Assembly (NCBI GenBank): GCA_017410195.1
Contig: JAFQRF010000003.1
Coordinates: 1-38,235, forward strand
DNA length: 38,235 nucleotides
Reading direction: 5' to 3'
Source: Clostridia bacterium
GTDB lineage: Bacteria > Bacillota > Clostridia > Oscillospirales > Acutalibacteraceae
Shown: positions 13,149-13,913 of the stretch, piece after piece
Layout of the letters: each line of letters opens with the position of its first letter
Position numbering within the stretch: position 1 is the first letter of the stretch
The notes under the pieces: model-generated
Told to the model about the DNA's origin: nothing
The model's database searches: none
The model's input: the letters and a program-made list of their open reading frames with translations, nothing else
Program-made: the position numbers and the translations under genes

Positions 13149-13176
13149 TTTGTCAAAAAGTAAACTTTTTGACAAA
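13149..13176. repeat. palindromic site 1, putative recombinase crossover site
   Basis: A perfect 28-bp palindrome with 13-bp arms (TTTGTCAAAAAGT and its complement) around a central AA at 13162-13163. The inner 20 bp, TCAAAAAGTAAACTTTTTGA, recur in inverted orientation at site 2. The layout (two ~12-13-bp arms around an AA core) resembles Hin/Gin-type serine invertase sites. Confidence 0.75.
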
Positions 13177-13240
13177 AGAGGTTTTACTTTTTAATTGGGA
13201 CTTATTTCGTAAAAACACATTAAAATATTGTATGTATGTA

Positions 13241-13268
13241 TTGATTTTTAAGAAAAATATGGTAAAAT
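13241..13268 (+). promoter_or_regulatory. promoter inside the putative invertible segment
   Basis: TTGATT (13241-13246), 16-bp spacer, TGG then TAAAAT (13263-13268), an extended -10. As written it points right, away from the surface operon and into the 3' end of the recombinase gene (antisense). After inversion it would point left toward the operon. Confidence 0.6.
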
Positions 13269-13292
13269 ATTAAATGTATAATTAGGTTTCAA
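13264..13292 (-). promoter_or_regulatory. weaker leftward promoter candidate in the same segment
   Basis: On the minus strand TTGAAA (13292-13287), 17 bp, TATTTT (13269-13264). It points toward the surface operon in the present orientation. The -10 is poorer (4 of 6) than that of the rightward promoter, but it prevents calling the present state OFF with certainty. Confidence 0.3.
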
Positions 13293-13312
13293 AAAGTTTA
13301 CTTTTTGAGCCT
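13285..13312. repeat. palindromic site 2, putative recombinase crossover site
   Basis: 9-bp perfect arms TCAAAAAGT/ACTTTTTGA around a central TT (13298-13299), with less perfect outer flanks. Its reverse complement matches the 20-bp core of site 1 exactly, so the two sites are inverted relative to each other. The last two bases overlap the recombinase stop codon. On the minus strand it could also form a hairpin after the recombinase gene, though no good T-tract follows. Confidence 0.72.
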
Positions 13313-13913
13313 ATTTTTTATACTCAATCTGATATTCTCTCATTCTTCTGTAAAAAGTTGCTTTACTCATATTACATTTTTGAATTGCTTCGGCAAGTGA
13401 GATTTGCTGTTTCTCATAATCTTTCACGATTTGAGGGAAATCGGACGGAGACTGAATTATTGGTCTGCCGAATTTAACCCCCTTAAGTTTAGCAGCGACA
13501 ATTCCTTCTGCTTGTCGTTTACGTATATTTTCACGCTCGCTCTGTGCAACAAAGCTCAGAATCTGAAGCACCAAATCAGCAATAAACGTTCCCATCAAAT
13601 CCTTACCGTTGCGGGTATCAAGCAACGGCATATCAATAACACATATATCTATTCCGATTTCCTTTGTCAAAATCCGCCATTGTTTTTGTATTTCTTCATA
13701 ATTGCGCCCAAGCCGGTCGATGCTCAGAATATAGAGTAAATCGCCGACTCTCAGTTTTTTTACAAGCTTTTTGTACCGTGGTCTGTCAAAATCCTTGCCC
13801 GATTGTTTATCCATAAAAATGTTTTTCTTTGGTATGTGCTTATCCTGCATAGCAATCAATTGTCTGTCCTCGTTCTGATCGGTGCTCGACACCCTGATAT
13901 ATCCATATACCAT
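13311..13913 (-). CDS. serine recombinase, DNA invertase/resolvase family
   Basis: 200 aa, the usual length of Hin/Gin/TnpR-type small serine recombinases. The N-terminus [15 protein letters not shown] holds the catalytic Ser (S9, aligned with S10 of Hin). [12 protein letters not shown] (~64-75) has the conserved active-site Arg residues, AQSEREN begins the E helix, and KGVKFGRP leads to a helix-turn-helix (~160-195; [20 protein letters not shown]). GGAGG lies 7 nt before the ATG. The gene ends at the edge of palindromic site 2, and a matching inverted site lies 138 bp further on, before the surface operon. That context favours an invertase acting locally; the neighbouring TnpV gene leaves a transposon resolvase as the alternative. 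Confidence 0.93.

Follow-up and report, generated by a model that had tools for sequence, protein, structure and literature searches.

Can a short piece of DNA between a small recombinase gene and a surface-protein operon turn that operon on and off, and by what means would it do so? The question is raised by the window, ie the whole stretch of 38,235 nucleotides analysed here, from a Clostridia bacterium of the Acutalibacteraceae, in which the two are separated by a 134-bp segment with a palindrome at either end. The first-pass annotation, made from the letters alone, had proposed a recombinase-driven invertible promoter that is OFF as written, and this is supported by the finding of no direct site pairs, by inversions in relatives and by the orientation of the promoter. 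Judged from sequence, the locus is highly likely to be a self-contained ON/OFF phase switch in which the adjacent recombinase flips the 134-bp promoter segment and the OFF RNA ends in a terminator made by the site itself.

The sites in the window

On the minus strand the order is recombinase gene, a palindrome with a TT centre, the 134-bp segment, a palindrome with an AA centre, and a collagen-like gene. The elements of the switch are as follows.

13311-13913, minus strand: small serine recombinase of 200 amino acids, proposed DNA invertase (PF00239, 5.5e-26; recombinases 57-100% identical to it adjoin five site pairs found by a recombinase-independent search)
13286-13311, no strand: recombination site 1, recombinase-proximal, two 12-bp half-sites with centre TT at 13298-13299 (26-bp extent deduced from conserved half-site positions 1-12)
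13150-13175, no strand: recombination site 2, operon-proximal, centre AA at 13162-13163 (26-bp extent deduced as for site 1)
13164-13297, no strand: probable invertible segment, 134 bp between the centres (judged from inversions in related loci)
13149-13176, no strand: perfect palindrome with 13-bp arms at site 2, between switch and operon

The recombinase-side palindrome, at 13289-13308, reads TCAAAAAGT TT ACTTTTTGA, 20 bp with 9-bp arms, and the operon-side palindrome, at 13153-13172, reads TCAAAAAGT AA ACTTTTTGA with identical arms, as had been described at first reading. Site 1 lies just past the recombinase stop codon, in agreement with the earlier statement that the gene ends at a palindrome. 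The second palindrome had been placed 138 bp further on; measured from centre to centre the distance is 136 bp, or 13 turns, and the enclosed length, earlier given as about 134 bp, is 134 bp between the centres. The collagen-like gene starts 113 bp from the centre of site 2. At up to three mismatches the window holds two matches to the site where 0.02 are expected, and two matches occurred in none of 100 shuffled windows. In the 2.36-Mb genome, which is about 94% complete, these two places are the only matches at up to two mismatches, and a reversed control pattern gave one place. Chance palindromes are ruled out by the window shuffles and by the genome-wide count.

Site pairs in related loci

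A scan of contigs with the recombinase returned at least 582 relatives, of which the best 80 were kept, and a search of the genus gave 13 recombinase matches in 11 of 45 genomes, the window's own included. Site pairs were sought after the listed recombinase matches with at least 150 bp past the stop, 91 in all (window included, locus L058 counted twice), and no condition was imposed on the centre. At up to three mismatches per site a pair followed the recombinase in 62 of these 91; the sites were inverted in 61 and carried a symmetric AT/AT centre in one. At up to one mismatch there were 52 pairs, 51 inverted and one symmetric. The site pattern gave no pair in the other 29 matches, five of which (L007-L011) have diverged sites recognised by eye. 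In L007-L011, which escaped the pattern and were entered by eye, the first site overlaps with the stop region of the recombinase and one of its sides is degenerate. The centre dinucleotides were GT/AC in 40 pairs, AC/GT in 14, AG/CT in three, AA/TT in two, and TT/AA, GA/TC and AT/AT in one each. Complementary changes of the centre at two places about 136 bp apart fit an inversion system, which needs matching two-base overhangs. A stricter search, in which exact arms of 7 bp or more were required, found pairs in 16 of 94 matches, and in none of 96 after single-base shuffling (the 96 include two extra copies of the window).

When genomes of the order were searched for a pattern of two exact sites separated by 116-146 bp, independently of any recombinase, 5 of 394 had it, and none had the reversed pattern. 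The window's own pair and three others are inverted and the fifth is AT/AT. Direct sites in relatives, or sites that lack the recombinase, had been named by the first-pass annotation among the outcomes that would speak against its reading; direct pairs numbered 0 of 62, and all five pattern pairs lie beside a recombinase 57-100% identical to the window's. In a search across the class, 18 of 391 genomes, the window's own among them, had a close recombinase, and 13 of 18 new loci had a complementary pair (up to four mismatches per site). The collection used below adds to the earlier set the class-wide pairs, L105, three pattern loci and five from the genus; its 84 loci form 59 clusters at 82% DNA identity over 450 bp. 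All the loci are related, and this clustering does no more than lessen the effect of kinship.

Half-site positions 1-9 and 11 are alike across all four arms. At position 12, counted outward, G prevails in the two arms of site 1 (0.83 and 0.78) and A in those of site 2 (0.57 and 0.66), a contrast that could make the two directions of inversion unequal. Some loci depart from the common plan. The AT/AT centres of L088, L102 and L141 should permit deletion besides inversion, and L134 has three sites after the recombinase, two of them just 19 bp apart. Site 1 lies within or across the recombinase stop region in L103, in L044, L046 and L102, and in L007-L011, and inversion there could alter the C-terminus of the enzyme itself. 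Unpaired near-matches to the site, with one mismatch, were seen in 3 of 59 other relatives searched (G016, G020 and G022).

Inversions between related loci

A comparison of strains had been suggested at first reading, and flipped segments are indeed seen between relatives. L029 and L130 are 93.7% identical over the recombinase and then, for 168 bp that take in both sites and a little of the DNA outside each, 95.8% identical on the opposite strand; when one is flipped in silico the two form a single 808-bp alignment at 93.9%. L049 and L065 after such a flip give one alignment of 2294 bp at 90.4%, with the downstream gene included. Within the window's genus, L007 is inverted relative to each of L008-L011, the minus-strand match being 161 bp long (positions 614-774) with the sites at 624 and 761. 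More distant opposite-strand matches join L022 and L054 to L029, L046 to L065, and L059 and L068 to L056. Short matches of this kind prove little, because L049 and L063, both OFF, also share one of 29 bp. Flipping L056 gave no better alignment to L020. The inversions seen are those between genomes, the genus of the window included, and not within one culture. Two marks of an inverton are present: inverted repeats flank a promoter upstream of a gene, and both orientations occur between relatives, same genus included. In the window strain the 134-base segment is very probably flipped by the neighbouring enzyme.

Spacing of the sites

With a turn taken as 10.5 bp, the distance between the centres departs by no more than a quarter turn from an integral number of turns in 57 of the 59 cluster representatives, and in 80 of the 84 loci. 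Outside the dominant peak at 134-139 bp, 24 of 26 clusters are in phase, and jittered sets were as concentrated at 10.5 bp with a frequency of 2e-5, or 2e-4 when the period was fitted between 9.5 and 12. The loci out of phase are the representatives L025 (151 bp) and L097 (257 bp) and the non-representatives L065 (129 bp) and L070 (91 bp). The number of turns between the sites was distributed among the representatives as follows.

11 turns: 1 representative
12 turns: 3
13 turns: 33
14 turns: 7
15 turns: 2
16 turns: 4
17 turns: 5
20 turns: 1
21 turns: 1
24 turns: 2

Such phasing implies that the two sites are used as a pair, and suggests that both have to be placed on one helix face, with synapsis through a short loop. 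The 91-bp switch of L070, which also has no good promoter call, may be locked.

The internal promoter

13241-13268, plus strand: putative internal promoter, -35 TTGATT, 16-bp spacer, -10 TAAAAT with extended TG (TGG-TAAAAT) (promoter scan; similar distance to site 1 in relatives; points away from the operon, OFF)

This is the extended -10 promoter, aimed away from the operon, that had been noticed at first reading. Scanning 12900-14100 gave 8 promoter-like sites against 4.6 in shuffles, so the window alone is weak evidence for it and its conserved place in relatives carries the call. A strict rule was used for the comparison: TTG at -35, a 17-bp spacer and a -10 box whose end is 24-32 bp away from the centre of the site. 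The sites were excluded, because a half-site can hold TTGACA and be mistaken for a -35 box. By this rule the promoter is directed at the recombinase in 42 of 58 cluster representatives, at the operon in two, and at neither in 14; shuffled sequences gave a mean of 0.66 and a maximum of 4. Over the 83 loci without N, 64 promoters point toward the recombinase and four toward the operon. The window itself was scored as neither, since its spacer is 16 and not 17. In the 54 loci of the first set scored OFF, the distance from the end of the -10 box to the centre is nearly always 26-30 bp, most often 28 or 29, and across the family the promoter is about 28 bp from the site. These counts imply that the assemblies are mostly in the OFF state. 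The OFF and ON labels depend on promoter calls, some of them made by eye, as for L019, L029, L137 and L103, which were read as ON. We infer that RNA from the window's promoter starts near 13275, about 21-22 nt before the centre of site 1, so that in OFF the site would be the first thing transcribed.

Hairpins at the sites

13283-13319, plus strand: hairpin across site 1 with six T after it, proposed as the intrinsic terminator that RNA from the internal promoter meets in OFF (fold of 13275-13325)

The fold of 13275-13325 has an energy of -14.5 kcal/mol, compared to -4.6 (sd 1.9) for shuffles (z -5.1). Matching of the arms beyond the core, at positions 10-20, was scored in 61 loci, those read as ON being turned to OFF in silico. 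In the OFF arrangement the arms match within a locus far better than in permutations, both at site 1 (428, permutation mean 288, maximum 340) and at site 2 (333, mean 250, maximum 298). The ON arrangement lies inside its permutations (235 with a maximum of 254 at site 1, 204 with a maximum of 248 at site 2). Matching drops to background at position 21, which is where the RNA would start, and position 12 pairs in 0.89 of the site-1 hairpins in OFF and 0.11 in ON. On this comparison the sites appear to double as hairpins whose outer arms match in OFF only, clearly in the family and weakly in this copy, a feature absent from the earlier reading.

The RNA was terminator-like in 35 of 58 clusters in OFF and in 6 of 58 in ON. 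The mean fold was -15.5 kcal/mol in OFF compared to -8.5 in ON, with OFF the lower in 48 of 58 clusters (Wilcoxon 6e-9), and the U-tail was better in OFF in 43 of 58 (p 3e-6). RNA of the recombinase was terminator-like at site 1 in 29 of 58, against 9 of 58. There are contrary cases: the OFF RNA was not the more stable in 10 of 58 clusters and its U-tail not the better in 15 of 58, L007 and L065 (both found ON) contradict the hairpin rule, and the genus locus L012 is weak in both states. By a loose terminator rule the window gives -12.0 kcal/mol with 8 U in 12 for OFF, and -10.4 with 6 U for ON; as both states pass the rule, the contrast in the window is modest. OFF-specific termination is therefore probable for the family, where the folds and U-tails argue well for it, and is less firmly indicated for the window copy.

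The recombinase

Ser9 of the recombinase, which we take to be the catalytic serine, is invariant in an alignment of 7 proteins. The best match of the enzyme among solved structures is Sin (2r0q, 1e-31), ahead of Tn3, gamma-delta and chains named DNA-invertase. By alignment it is 32% identical to Gin and 55% to an Enterococcus plasmid recombinase. The best listed plasmid relatives reach 57% by tblastn, with 636 of 637 listed records below 60%, and one close relative, H2 (57% by tblastn, 55% by alignment), adjoins a transposase gene. A passage of PMC3798978 gives Gln151, Arg154 and Leu155 as the Fis-contact residues of Hin. With positions assigned to Hin numbering by spacing, the Q-x-x-R-L of Gin aligns with Q-x-x-K-D (P0001) and Q-x-x-L-E (L049), ie the glutamine is kept and the arginine and leucine are not. 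The enzyme thus appears from its sequence to be Hin-like in its working mode and not by descent. The assignment to the Hin/Gin family made at first reading is accurate for the mode of action; the descent part does not stand, because Sin and the Gram-positive plasmid enzyme are nearer and two of the Fis-contact residues are missing. Membership of the Mpi group was also considered and rejected: the NCBIfam model NF009949 gave 44.6 bits, below its cut-off of 272, and with only two sites genome-wide (up to two mismatches) there is no pattern of many sites served in trans.

Proposed mechanism and alternatives

The recombinase would bind two inverted 26-bp sites, each of two 12-bp half-sites about a 2-bp asymmetric centre, and flip the 134-bp segment, the placing of both sites on the same helix face allowing synapsis through a short loop. 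In ON the single promoter of the segment would face the five-gene surface operon. In OFF, the state as assembled, it would face the recombinase gene; its RNA, with a start some 22 nt ahead of the site-1 centre, would fold into a hairpin of the whole site followed by U's and end at a length of about 45 nt. Recombinase mRNA should be terminated by this hairpin too. A flip would swap the inner arms and weaken the long hairpin, so that the promoter could read into the operon.

The switch might instead be an ordinary invertible promoter, in which inversion only turns the promoter and the arms, with no role in termination, reflect symmetric binding of the recombinase. The likeness of half-site positions 1-9 and 11 in all four arms is what a binding site would give, and the small ON/OFF contrast in the window, together with the 10 of 58 clusters of opposite sign, also fits this simpler scheme. 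Against it, the matching at positions 10-20 is specific to the locus and to OFF, exceeds every permutation (428, maximum 340) and is absent in ON; moreover, it ends where the RNA would start, and the U-tails are better in OFF in 43 of 58 clusters. We regard this alternative as unlikely, though with some real weight. A different doubt concerns the window alone, where the copy might be locked or decayed while the switch works in relatives. No flipped version of the exact window locus was found among the relatives compared, which are of other species, and the hairpin contrast in the window is weak; yet both 20-bp cores are exact, the centres are complementary, the sites are 136 bp (13 turns) apart and the full-length recombinase has the alignment-invariant residues, so we hold decay to be improbable.

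It is very improbable that the palindromes are bidirectional terminators, or the res site of a mobile element, and that the segment does not invert. The transposase gene beside the plasmid relative H2 and the T run after the site-1 hairpin would suit such an origin, but the centres vary between loci and yet are complementary within the pair in 61 of 62 (the other being AT/AT), and neither the inversions between relatives nor the helical phasing would be expected from it. A resolvase site in particular is set aside, since the 62 pairs include none in direct orientation, which is against a site for deletion.

Comparison with known systems

The hix sites are 26 bp long with a 2-bp centre. Hin of Salmonella and Gin of phage Mu likewise combine a small serine recombinase, inverted 26-bp sites with a 2-bp asymmetric centre, and inversion. 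A passage of PMC5903667 places hin inside its own invertible segment. Here the recombinase gene is outside the segment, which is mostly about 136 bp and helically phased, and, unlike Hin and Gin, the enzyme (32% identical to Gin) has not conserved two of the Fis-contact residues. Mpi of Bacteroides fragilis controls invertible promoters. As in the present case a serine recombinase goes with surface genes, and the passage concerned describes one master enzyme for at least 13 scattered regions (PMC5903667). In contrast, every switch here has its own adjacent enzyme.

The recombinase of cwpV in Clostridioides difficile is RecV, of the tyrosine type. In a passage of PMC2784873, the proposal is that inversion upstream of this cell-wall protein gene gives the OFF transcript an intrinsic terminator, and the promoter is outside the 195-bp invertible segment. 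In the present switches one inversion alters promoter and hairpin at the same time, and the hairpin is formed by the recombination site. Deletion by resolvases takes place between direct sites. Sin and the resolvases of Gram-positive plasmids and transposons share a sequence affinity with the window enzyme, but the pairs at its listed matches are inverted in 61 of 62, symmetric in one and direct in none. The passages of inverton surveys (PMC11892184, PMC5903667 and PMC11868660) name tyrosine enzymes, Mpi and Hin and not the present family, and among the open-licence papers searched none was recognised as treating it. Promoter inversion and terminator inversion, described only apart in these passages, are joined here in one element.

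The switched genes and possible exchange of the cassette

Five adjoining co-directional genes at 820-13050, with collagen, cohesin, Flg_new and LRR domains, would be expressed together in ON.

9271-13050, minus strand: first switched gene, collagen-like, 1259 amino acids, N-terminal hydrophobic stretch (Pfam Collagen 5.8e-41, Flg_new 7.7e-24; a relative lies behind a like switch in G021)
8561-9274, minus strand: cohesin-domain protein, 237 amino acids (Pfam Cohesin 2.2e-08)
7870-8598, minus strand: cohesin-domain protein, 242 amino acids (Pfam Cohesin 2.6e-05)
6608-7870, minus strand: protein without a family, 420 amino acids, with a hydrophobic N-terminal stretch seen by eye (Pfam and NCBIfam without a match at 0.001)
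820-6618, minus strand: large protein, 1932 amino acids, with cohesin, LRR and List-Bact repeats and a weak dockerin (Pfam)

The earlier description of a collagen/cohesin/dockerin operon holds for the five genes and for the collagen and cohesin domains; the dockerin scores 20 bits, below the Pfam cut-off of 22.9. With such a switch, expression of the collagen/cohesin operon may be confined to a part of the cells. The compact switch recurs in many gut Clostridia before many different genes. In 58 of 61 loci the first downstream ORF (80 codons or longer) is co-directional. Among the 59 first ORFs scanned, window included, BspA-type LRR proteins number four and AMP-binding, LRR_8 and Cas12f1-like proteins three each; SPFH, VWA, TIR, collagen and others have two each. 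One genome of the genus, G021, has two copies of the switch before two different predicted surface operons, one of them with a collagen-like relative of the window gene.

In three pairs of loci (L022/L054, L026/L032 and L059/L068) the shared sequence opens shortly ahead of the recombinase start and runs to 11-25 bp beyond the site-2 centre, and the compared flanks beyond the cassette share nothing. L024 and L028 are 97.5% identical to 14 bp past site 2, with the upstream DNA also shared, and are then followed by different genes. L012 and L017, which belong to one genome, are alike on the upstream side, and their identity ends 16 bp past site 1. The downstream genes are kept in L041/L042, L049/L065 and L008/L009. 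Identity ends near the site centres as if the sites were points of exchange. Selection on a compact unit explains part of this cassette-limited identity; in the case of L024/L028 the high identity followed by different genes needs a real replacement of the downstream DNA at the site. We tentatively propose, as an idea slightly more apt to fail than to hold, a mobile plug-in cassette for phase variation of about 0.8 kb that has spread through Clostridia, with a resolvase-descended invertase, two phased sites, one promoter with a site-made terminator, and sites that serve as exchange points to new genes. A viral origin of this type of switch was rejected: among 19 relatives on viral contigs (L104-L122), five of which end within 125 bp past the gene end, only L105 gave a pair, and it is identical to the genome locus L086 over the compared stretch.

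The signature of the switch, ie the recombinase, the half-site ACYTTTTGAYA, complementary centres, whole-turn spacing and a promoter at fixed distance, could be used to pick candidate phase-variable genes from Clostridia genomes without reads, and as a small serine inversion system it offers a direct test of the role of DNA looping. Two minor matches were seen near the switch. The 9271-13050 protein has a Toxin-JAB1 Pfam match of 40.5 bits (cut-off 21) in which no single stretch passes, and which is probably due to composition. At 15155-17158, on the strand opposite to the operon, a 667-amino-acid protein matches LRR-adhesin and PARCEL-repeat models, with PARCEL at 46.6 bits compared to a cut-off of 30 and the other models below theirs.
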